From contig NZ_AP017560.1 of the NCBI RefSeq assembly GCF_003967015.1, positions 2,232,001-2,296,000 on the forward strand: a DNA stretch of 64,000 bases, written 5' to 3'. A program made the position numbers and the translations under genes. Under the pieces are notes generated by a model. That model was not told the origin of the DNA and did no database searches. It saw nothing but the letters and a program-made list of their open reading frames with translations. Below are positions 26,106-45,653 of this stretch, piece after piece (the first letter of the stretch is position 1; the number at the start of each line of letters is the position of its first letter). Origin of the DNA: Pseudanabaena sp. ABRG5-3. GTDB lineage: Bacteria; Cyanobacteriota; Cyanobacteriia; Pseudanabaenales; Pseudanabaenaceae.

Positions 26106-27119
26106 ATGGCGATCGAAAAAGAAGAGCAAGATTTAGAGGCTGATGTTGACTTCAATGTAAGTTATCCTCAGAAATCAACGAAACCATCAAGTGTCAAGTT
26201 GTTGTCTGCATATTTAAAAGCCTTGCGACCAAGGCAATGGACTAAAAACTTAGTTGTATTTGCAGCTCCACTTTTTGCCTTTGAAATCACGACTAAATCT
26301 TTGTGGGGCGGATTACTTGCCTTTTGCCTTTTTTGTGCCGCTTCCAGCAGCTTTTATTTGATTAACGATATTATTGACGTTAAGTCCGATCGCCAACATC
26401 CTGTCAAGTCAAAACGCCCGATCGCATCTGGATTAGTTTCTGTTCCTGCGGCGATCGCGATGGCAATTATCCTTTTGACCTCAGCCTTGACGATTAGTTG
26501 GTGGCGTGACTCAGGGTTAGGATTAGCGATCTTAAGTTATGCAATTCTTCAAGTTGCTTATAACCTCCGCCTCAAACGTACAGTTATTTTAGATGTCGTT
26601 GCTATTGCTATTGGTTTCATTCTTAGAGCATGTGCTGGAGCTGCGGCTACAGGTATTGTTCTGTCTTCATGGTTTATTCTCTGTACTGCTATGCTTGCCC
26701 TATTTTTAGGTATTGAAAAGCGCAAGGCTGAACTGAGACTATCAGAACTAAGGGGCAAGAAATCTCGTGCTGTCCTCCAACGCTATTCCTTATCTCTCCT
26801 AAATCGAATGGAAACCGTAGCAACCAATGGCACGATTATTACCTATGCACTTTGGAGTTCTGGACCAGTTGTTCGTGGAGCCTCCACATCATGGATGCTA
26901 GTTACACTACCATTTGTCATGTATGGTATTTTTCGCTATCAATTGTTGAGCGATCCCCAAGAGATTGCCCGTCGTAGTACTGATACTGAGTTAGGAGGAC
27001 AAACCGAGCGCCCAGAGGAAGTTTTGTTAAATGATCAACCGATACTAATGACCGTATTAACTTGGATTGCCACAACATTTGGGATTTTAGTTTTAAAAAA
27101 ATATGGACTTATCTCTTGA
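26106..27119 (+). CDS. UbiA-family prenyl-phosphate phosphoribosyltransferase-like protein
   Basis: This 337-residue polytopic protein has the subgroup start LRPRQWTKNLVVFAAPLF (about 40-57) and the first aspartate motif NDIIDVKSDR (about 86-95), followed by KRPIASG. This pattern is that of decaprenyl-phosphate 5-phosphoribosyltransferases (Rv3806c relatives) more than of quinone-synthesis UbiA proteins. Such enzymes join PRPP to a polyprenyl phosphate at the membrane. A HAD phosphatase and an SMR-like transporter follow directly, which is consistent with dephosphorylation and flipping of the product. The pathway is inferred; about eight to nine hydrophobic segments are visible. Confidence 0.78.
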   Translation: MAIEKEEQDLEADVDFNVSYPQKSTKPSSVKLLSAYLKALRPRQWTKNLVVFAAPLFAFEITTKSLWGGLLAFCLFCAASSSFYLINDIIDVKSDRQHPVKSKRPIASGLVSVPAAIAMAIILLTSALTISWWRDSGLGLAILSYAILQVAYNLRLKRTVILDVVAIAIGFILRACAGAAATGIVLSSWFILCTAMLALFLGIEKRKAELRLSELRGKKSRAVLQRYSLSLLNRMETVATNGTIITYALWSSGPVVRGASTSWMLVTLPFVMYGIFRYQLLSDPQEIARRSTDTELGGQTERPEEVLLNDQPILMTVLTWIATTFGILVLKKYGLIS

Positions 27120-27159: not shown

Positions 27160-27681
27160 ATGGCTTCCTTTCTCACTAGGGCAGATACTTTAGCTTCTAT
27201 TGATCTTAATCGTTTAGTATCGTTGGGAATTAAAGGGGTTATCCTCGATTTAGATAACACAATTATTTCTGAGGATGATCGTTATCTATCACCTCATGCT
27301 GAAGATTGGATCGCACGAGCAAAAGATGTAGGATTGCAATTTTTCTTTTTGTCAAATGGCAAAAGGCGCTATCGTGTGGAGTATTGGTCTCACCACTTAA
27401 ATATACCTGCAATTAGTCCAGCCAAAAAGCCATTTCCGAGTGCATTTCACAAAGCAATGAAGCATATGCAGCTTGAATCACAACAAGTTATCGTAATTGG
27501 AGATAGTCGCCATACAGATGTTCTTGGGGCATGGCTATCAGGTTGTCGCAGTATTCAAGTTGCCTCTCTACCGCATCCACCTCGCTGGTGGGAAAAACTG
27601 TTAGGAAAATATGTCCAAACTCCCTATCCTAAAAAACTTGAACTTTGGGATTATCAAGCCTCAAATCACAATCAAAACTAG
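27160..27681 (+). CDS. YqeG-type HAD phosphatase (subfamily IIIA)
   Basis: The 173-residue phosphatase has HAD motif I GVILDLDNTII (D30 nucleophile, D32), motif II LSNGK, a lysine in KKPF, and motif IV IGDSRHTDVLGA. It belongs to the YqeG/Gep4-like group, whose members include phosphatidylglycerophosphate phosphatases. Its place between the UbiA-like and SMR-like genes suggests an alternative role in removing the phosphate from a polyprenyl-phosphoribose 5-phosphate. Both readings are open. An AGGAG-type site is not obvious upstream. Confidence 0.8.
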   Translation: MASFLTRADTLASIDLNRLVSLGIKGVILDLDNTIISEDDRYLSPHAEDWIARAKDVGLQFFFLSNGKRRYRVEYWSHHLNIPAISPAKKPFPSAFHKAMKHMQLESQQVIVIGDSRHTDVLGAWLSGCRSIQVASLPHPPRWWEKLLGKYVQTPYPKKLELWDYQASNHNQN

Positions 27682-28073: not shown

Positions 28074-29222
28074 ATGCAAAACTTATTTAAATTAAATAAT
28101 TTACAACTGAGCATGGTCGTTAATAATCACAAGCAAAAAACACAAAAGTTTGAGGGATTTGATTTCTTAAGGGCAATTTTTGCGATCGCTATAGTTGCCG
28201 ACCATGCTGGTCTCTTTTCTGTTGCAACTATACAAGAGCTAACCTTTGCAACAGATATTTTGTATGCTAATTTTAGCTATGTTGCAGTTCCAGTATTTTT
28301 TCAAATATCCCTATTTTTATTTTATTTTAAAGGTAAAAATCTAGAACTTAGTAGCTTTTTTCAAAAAAGAATAGTTAAACTAATTTATCTTTATCTTTTT
28401 TGGGTTTCTACTTTTACATTTTTAAAAATATTATTTACAAAAGGATTAACTGGTTTTACTAACTTTGATTCTTTATCGATAAGAAATATCCTTGAATTCA
28501 TAATTAGTGGTGGTAATTCACCACTTTATTTCTTCTTTTCATTGATCTTTATAACTTCTCTTGCTGCTGTAATAACTTTCTTGCGTAAGAAAATAGCAAA
28601 TGACTCACTGCAATTAGTTATTAGTTACTGCCTACTTACTTTGTTTTGTTTGTTAATACTTTCTTTTTCATTCACTGATCTTGTTGTTAATCTTATTGGT
28701 AGTCAAGAAATATCTGCTATGACAGCAATATCTAATATTGCCCGTTGGAACTATAACCCTTTAAATTTTTTACCTTACCTATTTACTGCATCAATTACTG
28801 TGCAAGAGTTCTATCAGGGTGATTTACAAAAACAAACTCTACACTTGAGCAAGAAACTATGGAGTTTGTTTTTTCTGTTTTTGATATTTACTTTGTTGGA
28901 GTGGTTTTTACTTAAGAATTTATTTCACTATTCGAGACTTTCTCTTGTATTTGGATCATGGTTACTTCTATATCTTGCATTAATATCAAAACAAAAACCT
29001 GCATATACTGTTTCTCTTGTGTCAAATCTATCATTAGGTATTTATGTAACACATTTATTTCTTACACATGTTTTTTGGATAGAAGCTCCAAACTTCTCTA
29101 ATGCAATTTTTGAGTTGTTACCTAGATTATATGTAATAGTTAGATTTTTAATTGTCTTAGGAGCTTCTATAGCTATAACCTACCTTTTGAAAAAGACTAA
29201 ATTGCTAAACAAGTTTGTCTGA
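28074..29222 (+). CDS. Acyltransferase family 3 (OafA-like) membrane protein
   Basis: This 382-residue, very hydrophobic protein has about ten membrane segments. The first, FDFLRAIFAIAIVADHAG, contains the R-x10-H motif of family-3 acyltransferases. These enzymes transfer acetyl or other acyl groups onto sugars during or after export. The A+T content is conspicuously high compared with the flanking genes. An alternative start (M14) at 28113 would remove a short leader. The next gene is also an acyltransferase of a different family, so this part of the locus looks devoted to acylation. Confidence 0.8.
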   Translation: MQNLFKLNNLQLSMVVNNHKQKTQKFEGFDFLRAIFAIAIVADHAGLFSVATIQELTFATDILYANFSYVAVPVFFQISLFLFYFKGKNLELSSFFQKRIVKLIYLYLFWVSTFTFLKILFTKGLTGFTNFDSLSIRNILEFIISGGNSPLYFFFSLIFITSLAAVITFLRKKIANDSLQLVISYCLLTLFCLLILSFSFTDLVVNLIGSQEISAMTAISNIARWNYNPLNFLPYLFTASITVQEFYQGDLQKQTLHLSKKLWSLFFLFLIFTLLEWFLLKNLFHYSRLSLVFGSWLLLYLALISKQKPAYTVSLVSNLSLGIYVTHLFLTHVFWIEAPNFSNAIFELLPRLYVIVRFLIVLGASIAITYLLKKTKLLNKFV

Positions 29223-29885: not shown

Positions 29886-32800
29886 ATGAACAGACTAAAA
29901 GCAATTAATTTTAATGTCGCTTCACCACTGGTTAAATATTTGCGCCAGTATCGGTTTGATCTTTTAATCGTAGTGGGATTAGCGATCGCGATCGCCATTT
30001 CTACCTATATTGGCACTTATCAGCTTCCTGCACCTCTTTTTACTGATTTATACGCTCAAGATGTCTGGTTTGGTGGTGACATCCCTACAGTCTTTGGTAA
30101 TATCACCAGTCTGAATAGTGATTTTGGTCGCAACAACAAGCATCCTTTATTCCCTCTGATCGTTTTTCCCCTAGTCTTTCTTTCTGGCAAGCTATTTCAC
30201 CTCGATCCTCTTGGCGCAGCTAGACTTGTAGCTGTTGGTGTATCTACACTTTGGATTGGTTCGCTTTACGCCTTATTTAGAATCATGGGTTGCTATCGAC
30301 TAGATTCAGCTTTATTGAGTCTAGTGGGGGCTGTGAGTGCAGCTTCAATTTTTTGGCTAATTATTCCTGAGTCATTTCCCCTCGCCTCTCTGACTTTCAT
30401 TTTAGGTTTAGCTTTTGTTACTCTAACGCAGTTTCGTCCGTTTACAGGGGCTTGGTATATTGCTATTAATGTGATCACTGTGAGTATTACCATCACTAAT
30501 TCGATGGTAGGCATTTTGGCTACATTGGTAAATAATCGCTGGAAAAAAGCAATCCAAATTTTTGTCGGTTCTTTACTGCTAGCGACAGGCTTATGGATTT
30601 TGCAACGGATTGTGTTCACAAATTCTGGTTTTCCTTTTCAGCCTGGAACTTTTATTGGTGAAAAGAAGTTTATTGCGGCTGCAAGTGGTGGTCTCCTCTC
30701 CTTCCTGAGTGCTTTTTTCTATCAAACGATGGTAATGCCAGCCACTCAGTTTGTAGATTTTGCAATTCGTCCTGACTGGGTAAAGATAGATGCTAATCTT
30801 TTAGCTCCGACATCAGGAAGCTGGTGGGGAACTGCTGCTATTGTCAGTTGGACTGCATTATTGATCTTGGGTTTGTGGGCATTTGTGACAACCAAGCAGC
30901 ATAACAAGCTACGGATCGTACTGGGATTGACTCTATTAGCTCAATTGGCAATGCATAGCATCTATGGTGCTGACGAGACCTTTATCTATTCCCTCCACTT
31001 CATTCCTCTGTTACTGACTTTGACTGCTTTTAGTCTGTTGACTCGCTTGCGTATAGTCAGTCTCATCCTCACAGCAGTTTTAATTGTCAGTGCGGGGATG
31101 AATAACCGCGCCCAGTTTACAGCGATCGCAGCTAATCTTTGGAATTATGGAACGCCTCAACAGCAAGTAGAAGCGCAAATGAAATTACGTCCCGCTGATT
31201 TTGGGTTGCGTAATGTGGGGCATGTGGTATTGGCAAATCCTAACAGTTCTAAGACCAATAAAGCTTTTCATGATATCGGTGGTAGTTTTAGTCCACAGGC
31301 AGGTAGTTTTGGGGTTTCGATTTGGGTTGTCGATCGCCAAGGAAATATCAAAACAACCAGCGATCGCATTCCTCTCAATGAAATTCAGCAGCAATTTACT
31401 GATTTCGCTCCTCAAAAAGCGCCGAAAATCCTCACGAAAACTAAATACTACGAAGCCTCTTGGTCATTACCCAAAGCAGGAAGTTGGCAACTGAATCTCA
31501 AAGCTTTAACTAGTGGCGATGATCGCTTAGTTGTCGCAGTCCGCAGTGTTGGTCCCGCAGGTGGGGCGATTCCTTCTCTTGATTGGAATGGCAATCGTTT
31601 GCTGATTAGCGATCGCTGGCTCATCAAAGATATTCCTAAGCAGGCAAAGGTGTATCTAGGTAGTGAAAGTACATCGGGATGGAACCGTGAACAATCTGAA
31701 ATTTCGCAATGGAAAGACCTCCATGGATGGATCTATGCGCGAATTGAGCTTAATCCTAGCGAAAATGTAAATTTACTAATCGAAGATAGTCAGGCGATCG
31801 CTGATATAGAAACACCATCCACCTCCCTCACATCTAATCTAGTCCTCGATTTACCAGATTCACAATTTGTAGATAGCTTAAAAGCTCAAATTGCTCACCT
31901 CACAATGGGAATTGCTGGAAACCATACCTACCCTAGTGATCCCGTAAGTTATCCGCTATCCCGTTTCCGTGATGGCGCTTATCAAATGGTCGCTCTAGCC
32001 CGTGCAGGACAACTGGATTTCGCCAAACAACTATCACCTTATTTTGCGGAAAATGATTTCATTAACAGTACTCTCCCTGAAGCAGATATCCCTGCTTTAG
32101 GCATTTGGGCGCTCGAAGAAGTAGCGATCGCTCTCAAACAGCCCGAATATGATCGTTGGTTATGGCCACATATTCAGCGTAAAGCCCAATTAATTGGGGA
32201 TATGTTGTCTAGCAATCGTGCTGGTTATCCGATCTTAAATGCTGCCAAGATTCCCTTTGCTGAAAACCCTGAATTGGTGAGGGTAGATCTTTCCGCAGGT
32301 AAGATGGAAAATAGTCCTAATGCCATTAGTATTGATCCTGCGGCTAACGTCATTAGTTATCGCGCTTTGCTTGATGCAGCAGCTTTAGCCGATCGCCTCA
32401 AACAACCCGACACTGCTAAACTATGGCGATCGCAAGCCGACAAATTAAGAGCAGTTTGGCAAAAAGATAATCCAATATCTACTCAAACAGACAATCAACA
32501 ATCAAAGTCAAAAGTTAAGCCACCTGAATTTGCTGCCTTTACCAATGGGCTTTGGCCAAGTGGAATTGCTGAAGGCGATCGCTCAGCTCTCACACAAGTA
32601 TTCCAAAAACGCTGGGCAAGTTTAAAAGATAAGTCTGGAGCCTTTAGCCCAGCATCTCCATCAATCCAAACTAATATTGCCGAAGCGCATCAATGGTTGC
32701 TGCTCGAGCAACCAGAGTGGGTATGGCAAGCCCTCAAATGGGCTTGGCAAAATCAAGCATCCTCTGGTCTATATACTTGGTCAGGCGATCGTAGTGAGCT

Positions 32801-33212
32801 AAGTGATAACGCATTACCCAAGAGCTTTTCTCAATGGCAACGGATGCGAGGACGAGTTAGTGCCACCCAACTCACCCCCCATTATTGGACATCTGCCGAG
32901 ATGCTTCTCCTGCAACTCGATATGTTGACTTATATCAGTCGTTCCACAAATCCACCAACTTTAGTTATTGGTTTAGGCATTCCTAAAACTTGGCTGAATA
33001 AACCAATTAGCGTTAAAGGTCAATTAATTGAGGGAAATCTTGTTGATTGGGCTTGGGATGGCAAGCAAATAAACCTCCAAGTTAAGGGAGAAACACTATC
33101 GTTCAAACTAGGCTCAGTATTCCCAAATGGGACCCAGATAAAAGTGGAAACTCCATCTGCGGAACCTTTATCTAAAGAAGAAATTTCCTCATTAAATTCA
33201 AAGGCAGAATAG
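29886..33212 (+). CDS. Large GT-C-like membrane protein with C-terminal alpha/alpha-toroid domain
   Basis: A 1108-residue protein. The first 420 residues hold about eleven membrane helices and an early periplasmic loop with acidic residues (PLFTDLYAQDVWFGGD), resembling GT-C glycosyltransferases. About 450-620 looks beta-rich. From about 650 to 1040 repeated helical hairpins appear (RDGAYQMVALARAG, GIWALEEVAIALKQPEYDRWLW, DAAALADRLKQPDTAKLW, QALKWAWQNQASSGLYTW), the pattern of a six-hairpin glycosidase or lyase toroid. I do not recognise a named family. It may both transfer and process periplasmic glycan. It starts 13 bp after the acetyltransferase gene and contains several HIP1 sites, unlike the two genes before it. 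Confidence 0.65.
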   Translation: MNRLKAINFNVASPLVKYLRQYRFDLLIVVGLAIAIAISTYIGTYQLPAPLFTDLYAQDVWFGGDIPTVFGNITSLNSDFGRNNKHPLFPLIVFPLVFLSGKLFHLDPLGAARLVAVGVSTLWIGSLYALFRIMGCYRLDSALLSLVGAVSAASIFWLIIPESFPLASLTFILGLAFVTLTQFRPFTGAWYIAINVITVSITITNSMVGILATLVNNRWKKAIQIFVGSLLLATGLWILQRIVFTNSGFPFQPGTFIGEKKFIAAASGGLLSFLSAFFYQTMVMPATQFVDFAIRPDWVKIDANLLAPTSGSWWGTAAIVSWTALLILGLWAFVTTKQHNKLRIVLGLTLLAQLAMHSIYGADETFIYSLHFIPLLLTLTAFSLLTRLRIVSLILTAVLIVSAGMNNRAQFTAIAANLWNYGTPQQQVEAQMKLRPADFGLRNVGHVVLANPNSSKTNKAFHDIGGSFSPQAGSFGVSIWVVDRQGNIKTTSDRIPLNEIQQQFTDFAPQKAPKILTKTKYYEASWSLPKAGSWQLNLKALTSGDDRLVVAVRSVGPAGGAIPSLDWNGNRLLISDRWLIKDIPKQAKVYLGSESTSGWNREQSEISQWKDLHGWIYARIELNPSENVNLLIEDSQAIADIETPSTSLTSNLVLDLPDSQFVDSLKAQIAHLTMGIAGNHTYPSDPVSYPLSRFRDGAYQMVALARAGQLDFAKQLSPYFAENDFINSTLPEADIPALGIWALEEVAIALKQPEYDRWLWPHIQRKAQLIGDMLSSNRAGYPILNAAKIPFAENPELVRVDLSAGKMENSPNAISIDPAANVISYRALLDAAALADRLKQPDTAKLWRSQADKLRAVWQKDNPISTQTDNQQSKSKVKPPEFAAFTNGLWPSGIAEGDRSALTQVFQKRWASLKDKSGAFSPASPSIQTNIAEAHQWLLLEQPEWVWQALKWAWQNQASSGLYTWSGDRSELSDNALPKSFSQWQRMRGRVSATQLTPHYWTSAEMLLLQLDMLTYISRSTNPPTLVIGLGIPKTWLNKPISVKGQLIEGNLVDWAWDGKQINLQVKGETLSFKLGSVFPNGTQIKVETPSAEPLSKEEISSLNSKAE

Positions 33213-34402: not shown

Positions 34403-34552
34403 TATTAATGAATATTAAATTATTGTTTAAGTCAAGATAAATTCGCAATTTATGCTGAAATAAATTATGAATCTAAAAATAAATATATTGCAATAAAATT
34501 AAAATCATTTATAATTAAGATTGCTTTCATGGAAATATATTGGAGGTTAGAT

Positions 34553-35473
34553 ATGTCACTTAATAAGCTCCCCATAAACGAAAAAAATGCTATTAAAGAA
34601 TACTATGATTCCTATGGTTATGTAATAGTTGAAAACCTGTTGAACCATTCTAGAATTCAAGCTCTTCTTGATGCTTATGAGATAATCAAGCATTCCAAAT
34701 CTTTTGTTTTTTTCAGTCAAGATACTCACCTTCCTACAAAACCAAAGCTAACTCAAGAAGGATTTATGGAGAATTCAATATTAAATCCTGCAAGTTTGAA
34801 ACTTTGGAAGCAATTTTCACAATCTGTAGAAGAATGCCTAGTTGATGAAAATATTACTGAAGTTCTCAAGGTACTGTCAGAATCATCTAGTTATGTGATG
34901 ATGCAAAATATGTTTTTTGACAAATCAACAGGCACTGTCGAACATCAAGATCACTACTATTTAGACTCAGAGCCACCAGGGAAAATGGTTGCTGCATGGT
35001 ATTCATTGGAAGACATCCATGAAGATGCAGGTTGCTTTTTTGTTCTTCCTGGTAGTCATAAGGGTAGAGTGATTGAACGCAAAAGTGCTTCAAATTTTTC
35101 CGACCATGACACCTTTGTAAAACAAATCAACAATTTAATTAATGAAGGTAACTACGAATATCGTAGTTTTCCACTCAAAAAAGGTGATGTACTTTTCTGG
35201 CATCCCTATACTATTCATGGAGCTTATAATAATCGCGATCCACGATTCAGTCGTAAATCTCTAACTGCTCACTATTATCCTAGTGACTTGGCTCCCCTTT
35301 ATGCAGGCAAAGTTCCAACACATAGGAAAACATCAAATTCAAACATCACGATTCTAGGTAGCCAAAAGGAATGCTATATATCTAATGCAATGCATTATGT
35401 AAGATATGTAGCAAATTATATTAGAGGTAGAGGTCCTGACTATGATATGAGAAGGAATAGCTATACAACATAA
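34553..35473 (+). CDS. Phytanoyl-CoA dioxygenase (PhyH)-like Fe(II)/2-oxoglutarate oxygenase
   Basis: The chosen ATG at 34553 follows GGAGG by 6 nt, giving 306 residues; an in-frame ATG at 34529 lacks such a site. The iron-binding facial triad is visible as H131-x-D133 (EHQDHYY) and H222 (HPYTIHGAY), with R232 or R234 placed to bind 2-oxoglutarate. PhyH-type enzymes hydroxylate lipids, amino acids and natural-product intermediates. In this setting it could hydroxylate an acyl or amino acid substituent, or a sugar. A second, distant member of the family lies at 44619-45653. Confidence 0.83.
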   Translation: MSLNKLPINEKNAIKEYYDSYGYVIVENLLNHSRIQALLDAYEIIKHSKSFVFFSQDTHLPTKPKLTQEGFMENSILNPASLKLWKQFSQSVEECLVDENITEVLKVLSESSSYVMMQNMFFDKSTGTVEHQDHYYLDSEPPGKMVAAWYSLEDIHEDAGCFFVLPGSHKGRVIERKSASNFSDHDTFVKQINNLINEGNYEYRSFPLKKGDVLFWHPYTIHGAYNNRDPRFSRKSLTAHYYPSDLAPLYAGKVPTHRKTSNSNITILGSQKECYISNAMHYVRYVANYIRGRGPDYDMRRNSYTT

Positions 35474-36688: not shown

Positions 36689-36734
36689 ATGCTAGAAATA
36701 AACTGTAGCCAATGCCAGAAATAAACTGTAACCG
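36689..36734 (+). repeat. 23-bp tandem duplication across the start codon of the adenylation gene
   Basis: Copies at 36689-36711 and 36712-36734 differ at three positions, and each begins with ATG. The first ATG is preceded by AGGA but opens an 11-codon frame ending at TAA. The second ATG opens the long gene but has no ribosome-binding site in the expected position. Confidence 0.75.
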
Positions 36735-39129
36735 AATTGGAATAGTAGCAGTTAATCATACTGGCTATGTGGAAGCAATGTTGCGGTGCATAGAGGATGG
36801 GAACATTGCTGTACCCCTTAGGTCAGACAATGATCATGATCGCATTAGTGCAGCTAGTGTAACAAAGATTATAACGCCTACTTTTGATGGAGATTGGATG
36901 ACGAGAAAATTCACTCCCCAAGAGATTGATGCAGTCGCCCTAATTTCTTTCACTTCTGGCACAGAAGGGAATCCAAAGGGCGTAATCTTAACCCACAAAA
37001 ACTTAACAGAGGTAGTTACACGTTTGAACTCGGTCATGCGTCTGGACAATAGTATTCGTGAGTATATTGGTGTACCTGTTTACCATTCATTTGGATTTGG
37101 TCGCTGTCGAGCAGTTGCTAAGGTAGGAGGGCAGTTTTTCATCCCCAGCAATGGATTTAACCCCTCTGAAATTGGAACAATGCTCAGAAATGGTGGAATC
37201 AACTCTATCTCAGCCGTTCCTAGCCTTTGGCGGTTATTGTTAGTTAATAAGGATCTCATTGGTAGTTATGGCAAAAGAGTCCGATGGATTGAAATTGGTA
37301 GCCAATATATGAGTCGTCAAGAAAAAGAAGAGCTTAGAAACCTGTTCCCTGAAGCAAGAATTGTCCAACACTATGGTCTAACAGAAGCATCGCGAACTAC
37401 ACTGCTTGAGATCCATCAGGCAGAAGGGGATGCCTTAGAGTCGGTCGGTCAAGCCTTAGGAAGTGTAAACATAAAGCTAACTGAGGCAGGACGAATTAGC
37501 ATTCGAGGCGAACATGTTGCCCAAGCATATCTAATTGATGGCAAAGAGGTAAACCTTCAAGACGAGGAGGGATGGTTCCTAACTAATGATCTTGGAAGCT
37601 TGGAGAATGGCTATCTGTACTATAAGGGTAGAGCAGATGACGTAATCAATTGCGGTGGCATCAAAGTTTATCCTGAAACTTTAGAAACAAAGGTTTATGC
37701 CAGTATTGGCTACAGCAATGGTATTGCAATTTGTCGCAAGACAGACCCAATGCGCGGAGATGGTTTTTTAGTTGCGGTGACAAGCGAAGTACAGATCGAT
37801 AAGCAACAACTGAGAACATTAGTCTTACAGGCTATTCAAGATATGGGGGTTAATGCTGGTAACGCTATCACAATCATTGATGTTGATAGTCTACCCAAAA
37901 CGGCAACTGGAAAAATCCAGAGGAAACAATTAGCTGAGTGGTACATGCGAGAATTCCCCCAAGAAGATCGACAAATAGACTCCCTAGATGAACCTGCATC
38001 TGACAATTCGCCCATTCAAGCTATTTTTTGTCGAACTCTTAAAGTCAACCAAATTCAAATTGAAGACACATTCATCTCATTAGGAGGAGATTCTCTATCC
38101 TACGTCCAGATTTCAATGGAGCTTGAGCGTTATCTTGGATATCTTCCTAAAAAATGGGAGCAGGTACCTTTGAATGATTTGGGAAAATTAGCTCCCCAAA
38201 AGAGAATATCTACAATCATCGAAATGAATACTCTGTTGAGAGCCTTAGCCATTTCTGGCGTTGTGGTTAATCAATCTGGTTTACTCTTTATCGAAGGAGG
38301 CGCATTGTTACTACTTCTAATCGCTGGTTTAAACTTTTCACGGTTTCAGGGATGTTCTTTGATTAAAGGACAGTTACATTCCATTGCGCCGCTACTGCGA
38401 CATATCTTAATTCCTTATTTAACTCTTGCGATTGCCTACCAAGCTTTTAAGCAAAACTTTGATCCTTTAGTCTTATTATTGCTAGGAAATTTTCAACTTC
38501 CAGAGATACAAACTTCAAATTCAATCTTCTTTGTTTGGTTTATTGCTAATCTTTGTCAAACTATTATTCTTTTTTCTCTTCCTTTTACTGTTCCGAATAT
38601 ACGCAGTTTTGCAGGTACATCTCCTTGGAAATTTGGGCTCATCTATCTAGTGATTGGTGTGGTTACACACCTTCTGGGACCATATATATGGGATACTAGT
38701 TATCTATACGATCAAGTACCACACATGTTGTTTTGGTTGTTTACACTAGGATGGTGTATACACTTTGCTAAATCTAAAGTTGAAAAAGTAATCACTACAC
38801 TCATAGTTATAATTATTACATCAGCTTTTATTGGATTTGATGTTTTAAGAAGTTGGTGGGTTTTAATTGGAGCAATTCTGTTGATTTGGCTACCTTATGT
38901 GTCTATCCCAAGCATCATCAAATCTCCTATACAAATGATTAGTGCGGCATCATATTATATTTATCTAACGGTCTTAATTTTTGTACATCTTGCCACTCGT
39001 GTAGCAGGAATTCGCTATCCTTTTGTTACTGCCGTAATAGTCTTGTTAGGAGGTGTGCTTACGTGGGGAGCAGTTCAATCGTTGCCACAATTTCTACAGA
39101 AACTCAAACAATTCCAGATCCAGATATAA
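36712..39129 (+). CDS. Adenylation-carrier protein-membrane (acyltransferase-like) fusion
   Basis: This 805-residue protein has three parts. Residues 1-430 form an AMP-binding domain with TSGTEGNPKGV (81-91), YGLTEAS (about 222), TNDLG in place of the usual TGD, and the catalytic-lysine region PKTATGKIQRK (about 394-404). Residues 430-500 form a carrier domain with the phosphopantetheine serine in LGGDSLS (about 460). From about 510 to the end there are some nine membrane helices, resembling a family-3 or MBOAT-like acyltransferase. It should activate an acyl or amino acid, hold it as a thioester and transfer it across or at the membrane, perhaps onto the glycan. The N-terminus is shorter than usual, in keeping with the duplicated start region upstream. 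Confidence 0.75.
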   Translation: MPEINCNRIGIVAVNHTGYVEAMLRCIEDGNIAVPLRSDNDHDRISAASVTKIITPTFDGDWMTRKFTPQEIDAVALISFTSGTEGNPKGVILTHKNLTEVVTRLNSVMRLDNSIREYIGVPVYHSFGFGRCRAVAKVGGQFFIPSNGFNPSEIGTMLRNGGINSISAVPSLWRLLLVNKDLIGSYGKRVRWIEIGSQYMSRQEKEELRNLFPEARIVQHYGLTEASRTTLLEIHQAEGDALESVGQALGSVNIKLTEAGRISIRGEHVAQAYLIDGKEVNLQDEEGWFLTNDLGSLENGYLYYKGRADDVINCGGIKVYPETLETKVYASIGYSNGIAICRKTDPMRGDGFLVAVTSEVQIDKQQLRTLVLQAIQDMGVNAGNAITIIDVDSLPKTATGKIQRKQLAEWYMREFPQEDRQIDSLDEPASDNSPIQAIFCRTLKVNQIQIEDTFISLGGDSLSYVQISMELERYLGYLPKKWEQVPLNDLGKLAPQKRISTIIEMNTLLRALAISGVVVNQSGLLFIEGGALLLLLIAGLNFSRFQGCSLIKGQLHSIAPLLRHILIPYLTLAIAYQAFKQNFDPLVLLLLGNFQLPEIQTSNSIFFVWFIANLCQTIILFSLPFTVPNIRSFAGTSPWKFGLIYLVIGVVTHLLGPYIWDTSYLYDQVPHMLFWLFTLGWCIHFAKSKVEKVITTLIVIIITSAFIGFDVLRSWWVLIGAILLIWLPYVSIPSIIKSPIQMISAASYYIYLTVLIFVHLATRVAGIRYPFVTAVIVLLGGVLTWGAVQSLPQFLQKLKQFQIQI

Positions 39130-39728: not shown

Positions 39729-40904
39729 ATGACTTCTAAACCCTCCTTTTATCCTAATGTACCAACTTCTAAGAAGATTTGTGTAGCTTGGCTCTTACCA
39801 GTGGCGTGGTTCTACTGGCAACCTGCTTTGAGTGAGTTCGCACAGTTATTTCCCAAGACAACTGTATTTACAGGTTTGTTCCCAGGGTTTGCTAAAGGGA
39901 TAGAAGGAAAACTTCAAGTTGAAGTCGTTGGCAAATTTCGAGTAATTGAGATCAATAAGGATGATTCGAGCTATGGAGATAACTTCACTTATCTATCTCC
40001 AAGAATTATTAATCACTTATTTAGTCTCAAGCCTCAAGTGATTTTTGCTAGTTCTTTTGGCGTATGGACAATTTTGGCTTTACTATTTAAGCCTCTATTT
40101 TGGTGGCGGGTGATCATTGCCTATGAAGGGAGTTCGCCAGGAGTAGATTATCGAAATTCAGCATTAAGGCTGTTGATTCGGAGGCTAATGATATGGATTT
40201 CTGATGCTTGCGTTACTAATAGTCATGCTGGTAGCGATTATTTAATTGAGATTCTAAAAGCAAAGAAAGATCGGGTGTTTGTGCAGCCCTACGAGATTCC
40301 CGATGAGCGCACATTACCAAGTAGTTCTGAAGTTCAAGAAACACCTGTTACCCGAAAACGTCCAGTATTTTTGTTTGTTGGTCATGTGATCCCCCGCAAA
40401 GGATTACCTTTGCTATTAGAAGCTTGTGCGATACTGCAAACTAGGGGCTATGAGAGTTACACTTTACAGGTGGTAGGCGATGGTTCACAGCAGCAAGAAT
40501 TAGAGTCTTTTTGTAAGGAGCATCATCTAAGCGATCGCGTGCAATGGTTAGGTAGAATCCCCTTTGATCAGATTAGAACTTATTTTGATCATGCTGATGT
40601 GTTTGTCTTCCCAACTTTAGAGGATACTTGGGGAGTGGTTACGTTAGAGGCGATGCTACTGGGTAAGCCGATCCTTTGCTCTAAAGGCGCAGGTACTTCG
40701 GAACTAGTTGTTGATGGAGAGAATGGCTATGTCTTTACCCCAGACGATCCTGACAAGCTTGCTGATCTCATGCAGAAATTTTTGGATGAGCCAAATTTGA
40801 TATCTGCTATGGGCGATCGCTCGAAGCAGATTATGTCTCAGTATACGCCAACAGCAGCAGCTCAATGTTTAGCTAAGATTACTGAACTTGTGATGTTAAA
40901 ATAA
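39729..40904 (+). CDS. GT4 family glycosyltransferase
   Basis: A 391-residue GT-B enzyme. Its N-terminal half lacks the usual GG-E-x loop. The C-terminal half shows FLFVGHVIPRKGLPLLLEA, VVGDGSQQQELE, FVFPTLEDTWGVVTLEAMLLGKPI with the conserved acidic pair, and GENGYVF. It begins a tight series of four glycosyltransferase genes (gaps of 14 and 2 bp, then an overlap), so they are almost certainly co-transcribed. Specificity unknown. Confidence 0.85.
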   Translation: MTSKPSFYPNVPTSKKICVAWLLPVAWFYWQPALSEFAQLFPKTTVFTGLFPGFAKGIEGKLQVEVVGKFRVIEINKDDSSYGDNFTYLSPRIINHLFSLKPQVIFASSFGVWTILALLFKPLFWWRVIIAYEGSSPGVDYRNSALRLLIRRLMIWISDACVTNSHAGSDYLIEILKAKKDRVFVQPYEIPDERTLPSSSEVQETPVTRKRPVFLFVGHVIPRKGLPLLLEACAILQTRGYESYTLQVVGDGSQQQELESFCKEHHLSDRVQWLGRIPFDQIRTYFDHADVFVFPTLEDTWGVVTLEAMLLGKPILCSKGAGTSELVVDGENGYVFTPDDPDKLADLMQKFLDEPNLISAMGDRSKQIMSQYTPTAAAQCLAKITELVMLK

Positions 40905-44618: not shown

Positions 44619-45653
44619 ATGAAAAGTCTATACCAACTCCGTTATCTACGCCCTGACAACTTATATCCACTTTATTATCTAACTAATAAAGTGGTTAATA
44701 AATTACTAAGTCTGCCATCTGATATAGCTTGCGGATTTAATAGTAATGACTGGTTTGAACAGTTAATTCTTTTGCCTCGATATCAAAATATGCTCCGTCA
44801 ACACAAAGATCATTTACCCCGAATTGACGATAATGAGCAGAATATAGTTGACCAACTTGAGCAAAATGGTGTTTGTATTACATCGCTAGATGCGTTATTG
44901 ATTCCTGATAGTCATAAGCTTTTAGAAGCTGCCCAGCCTATTACTAACGAGCTTGCTCAACAGTCGCGATCGCCTAGTCACTTAGGTAAACATACATTGA
45001 TGGCAAATGCTGATCAATTGCTAGCACATCCAGAAATTATTCGTTGGGGACTTTCAGAAAGACTTCTCAAGATTGTGGAATGCTATTTGGGTTTACCTGT
45101 AGGCTACGGTGCATTATCGTTTTATTACAGTGTTGCAGATGGAAGAGATGCAGGACCACGCATATGGCATCGAGATAAAGAAGACTGGAAAATGGTCAAG
45201 GTTGCTGTTTATTTAAATGATGTTGATGAATTTGGTGGTCCTTTTCAGTGTGTTAAGTCAGATATCAACAAATTCTTGATTGAAACACTGCCCCAATATA
45301 AGGGGTTAACTAACTCAGAACTAGAACAATTATTAAAGACTAATAACCCTGATGAATACTTAACCTCTTGTGTTGGCAAAACTGGAACGGTTATTTTTAC
45401 TGATACATCCAAGTATTACCACCGTGGAAAACCACCCTCAAAAAGCGATCGCTCAGCGGTTTTTTTCCACTACTTTAGCTATCGTCCTAAAAACCCCTTT
45501 TACTGCGATCGATCTCCTCTATCTAGTAATCAAATTGTAGAGTTTGATAAGCAGCTACCAATTCATCTTCAGGGGTATTTAACTTGGAGAGAACAATGTC
45601 CTGGATTAGGGCGATATATTCCTAAAAATCAAATGAAAGTCGATAATTGGTAG
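44619..45653 (+). CDS. PhyH-like Fe(II)/2-oxoglutarate dioxygenase
   Basis: A 344-residue protein with an N-terminal extension of about 85 residues before the oxygenase core. The iron site is visible as WHRDKEDW (H-x-D near residues 184-186) and the distal histidine in YYHRGKPPSKSDRSAVFFHY (about 268), followed by an arginine suitable for 2-oxoglutarate. It is only distantly like the dioxygenase at 34553. Substrate unknown; modification of a glycan or its acyl decoration is the contextual inference. Confidence 0.75.
   Translation: MKSLYQLRYLRPDNLYPLYYLTNKVVNKLLSLPSDIACGFNSNDWFEQLILLPRYQNMLRQHKDHLPRIDDNEQNIVDQLEQNGVCITSLDALLIPDSHKLLEAAQPITNELAQQSRSPSHLGKHTLMANADQLLAHPEIIRWGLSERLLKIVECYLGLPVGYGALSFYYSVADGRDAGPRIWHRDKEDWKMVKVAVYLNDVDEFGGPFQCVKSDINKFLIETLPQYKGLTNSELEQLLKTNNPDEYLTSCVGKTGTVIFTDTSKYYHRGKPPSKSDRSAVFFHYFSYRPKNPFYCDRSPLSSNQIVEFDKQLPIHLQGYLTWREQCPGLGRYIPKNQMKVDNW

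Follow-up and report, generated by a model that had tools for sequence, protein, structure and literature searches.

How activated acyl groups pass across bacterial membranes is an open question. The papers on the AT3 acyltransferases consulted here study it with acyl-CoA as the donor. A locus of the cyanobacterium Pseudanabaena sp. ABRG5-3 (genome 5.66 Mb) raises the question of whether one protein could activate an acyl group, hold it on a carrier and hand it to a membrane transferase. The window analysed here, a stretch of 64,000 nucleotides of contig NZ_AP017560.1, contains a glycan locus in which a single gene combines an AMP-forming ligase, a phosphopantetheine carrier and a membrane domain. 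If all three steps were united in a single chain, acyl passage could be tested in a compact system.

Domain organization and integrity of the fusion gene

The gene and its main features are located in the window as follows.

36712..39129, + strand: A-PCP-TmAT fusion gene, an open frame of 805 aa plus stop
36712..37956, + strand: AMP-forming adenylation (A) domain without the usual N-terminal part, with TSGTEG at A3, PVYHSFGFG at A4, YGLTEA and TND
37912-37914, + strand: A10 Lys401, from the reading of the A-domain motifs
38014..38139, + strand: phosphopantetheine carrier domain (PF00550, cutoff 20.8 bits)
38092-38094, + strand: Ser461, presumed attachment residue, in GGDSL
38194..39126, + strand: membrane domain of predicted TmAT fold, about ten helices (model and alignment)
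38239-38241, + strand: Arg510 of TMH1, conserved in the branch alignment
38272..38274, + strand: Gln521 (CAA) at the His position of R-X10-H (alignment)
38962-38964, + strand: Tyr751 of TMH9 (alignment)

A whole-protein Pfam scan of the 805-aa fusion recovered AMP-binding (104.5 bits, residues 68-274) and PP-binding (30.3 bits, residues 435-476), with no match for the membrane part. The Pfam matches, the open frame and the relatives described below bear out the preliminary description of ligase, carrier and membrane domain as one protein. The frame is also unbroken in a 97% orthologue (L009/L053) found in one congener. Since the arrangement is intact there and recurs in cyanobacterial and other loci, the fusion is real and not a product of chance. 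Among 145 near genomes, one other besides that of the orthologue gave a match at 1e-30 (G039), and this relative carries a different, full-length A domain. Between the window gene and the orthologue, the A domain had a dN/dS of 0.15, the carrier one of 0 and the membrane part one of 0.46; selection on the A domain speaks for a gene that is being used. The membrane-part value, derived from 8 silent and 12 coding changes, was not significantly different from 1 (Fisher p 0.11), and the difference in rate between membrane part and A domain was not significant either (p 0.15). In the carrier, GGxS was kept in all 19 aligned rows of the type I branch (defined below), and the host genome has one match to the phosphopantetheinyl transferase profile PF01648.

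Two near-identical 23-base units are situated at the 5' end of the gene (window 36689-36735). An ATG at 36689, preceded by a Shine-Dalgarno-like AGGA (by eye), opens a frame of 11 codons only, and the ATG of the gene at 36712 falls inside that short frame in another reading frame. The same repeat and the same out-of-frame, AGGA-preceded ATG are present in the orthologue.

Adenylation domain and class of substrate

The A domain scored 104.5 bits against PF00501 (cutoff 29.9) and possesses the core motifs A3 and A5, the A7 Asp and the A10 Lys. The match begins at position 157 of the 384 in the profile, leaving the N-terminal subdomain incomplete, and the domain starts approximately 40-70 residues late, with residue 22 aligned at position 62 of menE and residue 23 at position 92 of PRK09088. 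This late start is common to the relatives with the same short A domain and is for that reason not regarded as a damaged start. The TND in place of the usual TGD, singled out in the preliminary description, was discarded as a special motif, given that the short-A relatives have TKD, TTD, TSD, TGD, TAD or TND at the same site and that TND is normal for the family.

The evidence on the substrate comes from profiles and from motif A4. The top NCBIfam model for the fusion was an acyl-CoA ligase (161.6 bits), with an amino acid adenylation model at 89.5 bits; among the best 25 of 104 rows, none exceeded its own cutoff. When the A-carrier profile was compared with solved structures, the best matches were NRPS A-carrier segments, McyG, oxalate-CoA ligases and 4-coumarate-CoA ligases, and the D-alanine ligase ranked lower (E 5.5e-19). 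The A4 segment, PVYHSFGFG, is acyl-CoA-ligase-like and stands in place of FDxS, in which the Asp serves the amino group of an amino acid substrate. An FDxS-type Asp was absent from every readable A4 segment and present in the genome's own NRPS domain. Since this Asp would be expected in an enzyme for amino acids, an acyl group appears the likelier substrate. Of the two options in the earlier suggestion, a hydroxylated acyl or amino acid group, the amino acid is therefore unlikely.

Distribution and modules of the family

Related fusions were found in Cyanobacteria, Alpha- and Gammaproteobacteria, Actinomycetota, Chlorobi and one planctomycete. A scan of a genome collection yielded L011-L019, from cyanobacteria, gammaproteobacteria (L015, and L018 from Methylophaga), Chlorobi and the planctomycete Aeoliella. 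By blastp, L011-L015 were 40-72% identical to the window fusion over nearly its full length; L016-L019 were 45-49% identical over the A-carrier part and have a membrane part of another type. In 388 genomes of the class, taken to be the cyanobacteria because the named cyanobacterial records L011-L014 have the same proteins as genomes in that set, the short A-carrier part was detected in 13 (1e-60) and the membrane part in 17 (1e-10). No free-standing type I membrane domain was seen in these 388 genomes, with 18 of 18 among the matches listed (E 1e-10) lying in frames of 765-933 aa. The fusion was present in 4 of 150 genomes around the Chlorobium genome, that genome counted. In a plasmid collection 67 records matched, 49 of them covering 80% or more of the query, and the matches by genus included 41 from Rhizobium, 6 from Rhodococcus and 3 from Mycolicibacterium. 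No relatives were found in viral contigs with either alignment. In Neorhizobium galegae pNgVX (L112:8980-11196), the source of one of the 13 type I plasmid proteins described below, the gene is divided between two open frames of 366 and 323 aa. The product name "AMP-binding protein" is borne by 17 of 20 among the plasmid matches listed, and 10 of the 13 inspected plasmid-borne relatives are annotated as that only. Given this annotation and the spread of the layout over several phyla, what is learned from testing one protein would point to the function of many others.

The membrane part falls into two types, I and II. Type I comprises the window protein, L011-L015, L053, L058-L064, L066-L070 and 13 plasmid proteins, and its carrier-membrane module occurs joined to A domains of three kinds: the short A, an NRPS-like A (L066, L067) and a third A (L068-L070 and 10 plasmid proteins). 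Type II follows the short A domain in 7 different proteins (L016-L019, L065, L108, L109). A tree of 32 carrier-membrane sequences required 3 changes of A-domain kind, the least possible being 2, and placed the window protein in a clade of five with L053, L011, L059 and L061 (support 100/99).

Predicted fold of the membrane domain

AlphaFold2 modelling of the window membrane domain, run with five relatives, gave a pLDDT of 71.8 and a pTM of 0.71, and the predicted helices fit about ten spans and not the nine counted earlier. VIA-align, applied to the Foldseek list, placed HGSNAT first (Z 14.2, rmsd 4.5, 264 aligned) and GWT1 second (Z 10.5), followed by unrelated rows at 6.5 or lower. For the type II model (pLDDT 67.1) the order was the same, with HGSNAT at Z 19.6 (rmsd 4.5, 294 aligned), GWT1 at 15.7 and the next row at 6.0. 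Foldseek by itself returned no match for the membrane model at E <= 0.001, and a sequence search of the membrane domain against the PDB returned nothing up to E 10. HGSNAT and GWT1 are assigned to the TmAT superfamily in passages of PMC12423673, where MBOAT/DltB is used as a structurally distinct control. The membrane domain appears to match the TmAT fold of the AT3/HGSNAT acyltransferases, as judged from predicted models of middling confidence (the pLDDT values of 71.8 and 67.1 above).

Pfam AT3 (PF01757, cutoff 31 bits) was exceeded by 2 of 8 isolated membrane domains. Among type I domains, L014 (39.6 bits) and L012 (33.8 bits) were over the cutoff, and L010 (23.1), L015 (19.7) and the window (7.4) were under it; of type II, L018 reached 19.5 bits and no AT3 row was obtained for L016 and L019. 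Of five isolated membrane domains compared with NCBIfam, four had no row at all and the fifth had a single one at chance level (E 0.38). No Pfam row for MBOAT (PF03062) was obtained for the eight domains at a limit of E 10, the search filters dropping most rows above about 0.1, and MBOAT was unlisted among the structural matches of either model, an absence that does not exclude an MBOAT fold. An hhalign comparison of the membrane family with a small AT3 set reached a probability of 91%, but across no more than 79 columns, and was set aside; 2 of the 7 rows in that set (L075, L076) were wrongly chosen. The candidate that the preliminary description had named as fatal to its proposal, an unrelated transporter, was rejected on the match of the predicted model to an acyltransferase fold, that of TmAT, and on the AT3 scores of the relatives.

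Active-site residues

The conserved residues of the TmAT set, according to passages of PMC12423673, are the TMH1 Arg, the TMH2 FxxxxG, the TMH3 Arg and the TMH9 Tyr. In the alignment of the type I branch (19 rows, with L054-L057 dropped as duplicates of L011-L014, and L010 being the same gene as L066), the TMH1 Arg was found in 19/19 rows and the His of R-X10-H in 17/19. The TMH9 Tyr was retained in 18/19, with Phe in L015 (by eye). The Gly of TMH2 was kept and the Phe of FxxxxG was found in 0/19, and the TMH3 Arg was absent in the window branch. All 13 plasmid relatives have the TMH1 His. The Arg/His pattern counts (19 rows, 13 plasmid relatives) require the Arg, so the 19-row alignment is the independent reading. 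The Asp of DxxR was present in none of the 19 type I rows or the 13 plasmid relatives, and in 21 of 29 AT3 controls. As controls we used ordinary AT3 proteins encoded in the same genomes or in related ones; 31 loci were considered, five with frames shorter than 330 aa were dropped (L082, L090, L094, L099, L104) and three context genes were added to give the final 29, of which 12 resemble one orthologous group (by eye).

The two exceptions at the His position are the window copy and its orthologue L053, both with Gln. Being common to the two, the replacement is not an error of one genome, and it leaves the activity of this copy uncertain; the window copy may be weak or inactive, given Gln at the usual His position. 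The membrane domain might accordingly be non-catalytic in the window, either as the anchor of an A-carrier pair or as part of a decaying gene, with another enzyme taking the acyl group. Such a reading gains from the loss of a His found in 17/19 branch rows and 13/13 plasmid relatives, from the higher dN/dS of the membrane part (0.46 versus 0.15) and from the out-of-frame ATG at 36689 with its AGGA (by eye), shared with the orthologue. Nevertheless, two species retain an unbroken frame, the dN/dS difference lacks significance (p 0.15), and HGSNAT has Asn, likewise an amide, at this site, where it is called important for function in passages of PMC12423673. We regard a non-catalytic membrane domain as unlikely beside the preferred reading of an active transferase.

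Genomic context

Two neighbours of the fusion gene recur with its relatives.

26106..27119, + strand: decaprenyl-phosphate phosphoribosyltransferase-like UbiA protein (NF008978, 263 bits, cutoff 207)
29886..33212, + strand: 1108-aa protein without Pfam or NCBIfam match

All five window-clade loci lie in clusters that share genes with the window glycan locus, namely the NF008978-like gene, a YqeG-type phosphatase, the 1108-aa protein, a GMC oxidoreductase, an epimerase-like and a rhamnosyltransferase-like gene, not all of them at each locus. A homologue of the 1108-aa protein directly adjoins the fusion in L059 and L061. The YqeG-type phosphatase (27160-27681) adjoins the UbiA gene, and homologues of both were observed near the fusion in L059 and L061; the pair suggests polyprenyl-phosphate-ribose chemistry in a cyanobacterial glycan cluster. 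Outside the window clade, L014 has glycosyltransferase-like neighbours, and homologues of the window glycosyltransferase at 39729 are located near L016 and L018. The earlier proposal of activation, carrier and membrane transfer combined in one chain within a glycan locus is supported by these results.

Homologues of the window glycan genes were not found near six other short-A cyanobacterial loci (L012, L058, L060, L062-L064), and four of the five actinobacterial plasmid loci inspected adjoin iron ABC transporter genes (L115, L117, L118, L120; L115 and L120 are nearly identical). On these two grounds the acceptor need not be a glycan in every case, and the protein could be a self-loading transferase whose product is a secreted small molecule, a metallophore or a lipid. 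This is rather improbable for the window, where the whole clade of five shares glycan genes and where the glycosyltransferase homologues extend to L016 and L018. With an active transferase at the window locus, a polyprenyl-linked glycan or glycolipid is, tentatively, the most likely acceptor.

Other genes of the locus were also inspected. The PhyH gene (34529-35473), to which the preliminary description had attributed a hydroxylating role upstream of the fusion, is real (Pfam, 114.8 bits). The proposed partnership did not hold up: by blastp (1e-6), the orthologue L053 has a PhyH homologue close to the fusion and none was found at 20 other loci, some of which end at contig edges, so that it is not conserved among the loci compared, although a distant PhyH could escape blastp at this threshold. 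The gene at 44619-45653 encodes 344 aa with no Pfam match over cutoff and an H-x-D plus distal H pattern (by eye); it may be another 2-oxoglutarate dioxygenase, the second in this locus. A separate AT3 acyltransferase with intact R-X10-H (28074-29222, 70.7 bits) is encoded in the same cluster, which gives the locus a second transferase of this kind.

The CoA-contact pair

In simulations of OafB, the RxxR Arg74 lies at the 3'-phosphate of CoA (PMC9833829, in part), and in HGSNAT the TMH9 Tyr is near the thiol end of CoA (PMC12423673, in part). The window has LxxH at the RxxR site, and a basic residue at either of the aligned positions was found in 0/19 type I rows. In 13/19 rows the residue just ahead of the second site is basic, and it might still meet CoA. 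The same pattern, [RK]xx[RK] followed by an aliphatic residue within 80 residues after TMH1, was applied to fusions and AT3 controls alike, and was found in 0/19 type I rows versus 28/29 controls; in the plasmid relatives it occurred in 7/13 and in type II in 6/7 (L107, identical in sequence to L017, being dropped). At the aligned positions themselves, the plasmid relatives have basic residues at both in 0/13 and at either in 5/13. The loss of the pair holds for the window branch and not for such fusions in general, and the reasoning that follows does not extend to more distant relatives. In the window branch the contacts to the CoA end are lost and those to the thiol end kept, which would be compatible with a carrier-bound donor. 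Since the window protein fails the score, His and RxxR tests, it was not filed as AT3.

The membrane domain could still use acyl-CoA, with the fused A-carrier part serving another step. The retained TMH1 Arg, the single basic residue near the RxxR site in TMH3 of 13/19 rows and the basic pair kept in many more distant relatives can be read in this way. The total lack of the pair in the 19 window-branch rows, together with a membrane part that is never alone among the matches listed from 388 genomes, makes continued use of acyl-CoA quite improbable in comparison with a donor bound to the carrier.

Proposed mechanism

With modest confidence, we explain the fusion as a self-loading transmembrane acyltransferase that draws on a carrier of its own. 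The A domain would adenylate a carboxylic acid, probably not an alpha-amino acid. Judging by the motifs, the activated acid would then be loaded onto the phosphopantetheine of Ser461 in the adjoining carrier, and the loaded arm would enter the TmAT-fold domain through its cytosolic mouth, the site at which acyl-CoA is taken in by AT3 proteins. The acyl group would finally be passed to an acceptor on the outer face. The basis for this reading is sequence and prediction, that is, the fusion itself, the motifs, the fold match, the conservation and the loss of the CoA pair in the window branch. It is favoured by the occurrence of different A domains on one carrier-membrane module, by the phosphopantetheinyl transferase in the genome and by the glycan clusters of the window clade. 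The window PF01757 score of 7.4 bits, the Gln for His, the middling models and the basic pairs kept in distant relatives count against it.

A wider proposal is that of a multi-phylum class of TmAT-fold acyltransferases, apparently without a name so far, in which a fused carrier is charged by its own ligase. The window branch would lack the CoA site entirely, exchange of the ligase would set the acyl group with the carrier-membrane module constant, and the Gln of the window lineage would act as the Asn of HGSNAT does. This proposal is tentative, and we place it a little short of an even chance.

The addition of an amino acid to the glycan in the manner of D-alanylation, as first proposed, shares with the fusion the identical order of steps, from ligase to carrier to membrane acyltransferase, and in that respect the analogy stands. 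The specific resemblance to DltB was not sustained, the fold matched by the predicted model being TmAT-like, and the A4 segment is of the acyl-CoA-ligase type without the FDxS Asp, to which we assign the role given above. Amino acid transfer of this kind consequently has little likelihood. An amino acid homopolymer synthetase is scarcely credible. The epsilon-polylysine synthetase likewise unites A, T and membrane segments (PMC8117764, in part), but the window protein ends after its membrane domain at residue 805, without three tandem C domains, and its membrane model is TmAT-like.

Relation to known systems

No description of an AMP-binding/carrier/AT3 fusion was found in the literature searched, a scope largely outside the subscription journals, and a term search of the main texts of PMC9558356 and PMC12423673 found none of "AMP-binding", "phosphopantetheine" and "acyl carrier". 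The parts of the fusion are known, their combination was not found described, and the fusion is real and multi-phylum.

The DltA-DltC-DltB system of D-alanylation has the same order of ligase, carrier and membrane acyltransferase, and differs in its separate proteins, its amino acid substrate and its MBOAT membrane protein. The same logic is followed in a Gram-negative bacterium by AlmE/AlmF/AlmG in the glycylation of lipid A (PMC3783018, in part), again with separate proteins, an LPLAT-type domain in AlmG and glycine as the substrate. The epsilon-polylysine synthetase Pls is also an A-T-membrane fusion (PMC8117764, in part), but it has three tandem C domains and six membrane segments and polymerises lysine. 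HGSNAT, the top structural match, has an amide at the same TMH1 position (Asn, for Gln in the window) and, unlike the fusion, uses acetyl-CoA without ligase or carrier. With the AT3 proteins (PF01757; OafB, OatA; TmAT superfamily) the fusion shares the predicted fold, the TMH1 Arg, an SxxxY-like motif in TMH9 and, in most relatives, R-X10-H, for which the window copy has Gln in place of His. It differs from them in its own ligase and carrier, in the lack of RxxR and of the DxxR Asp in the window branch and in the score of the window copy, which is below the Pfam cutoff. In summary, the fusion most likely works like an AT3 protein that has its own acyl-carrier supply.
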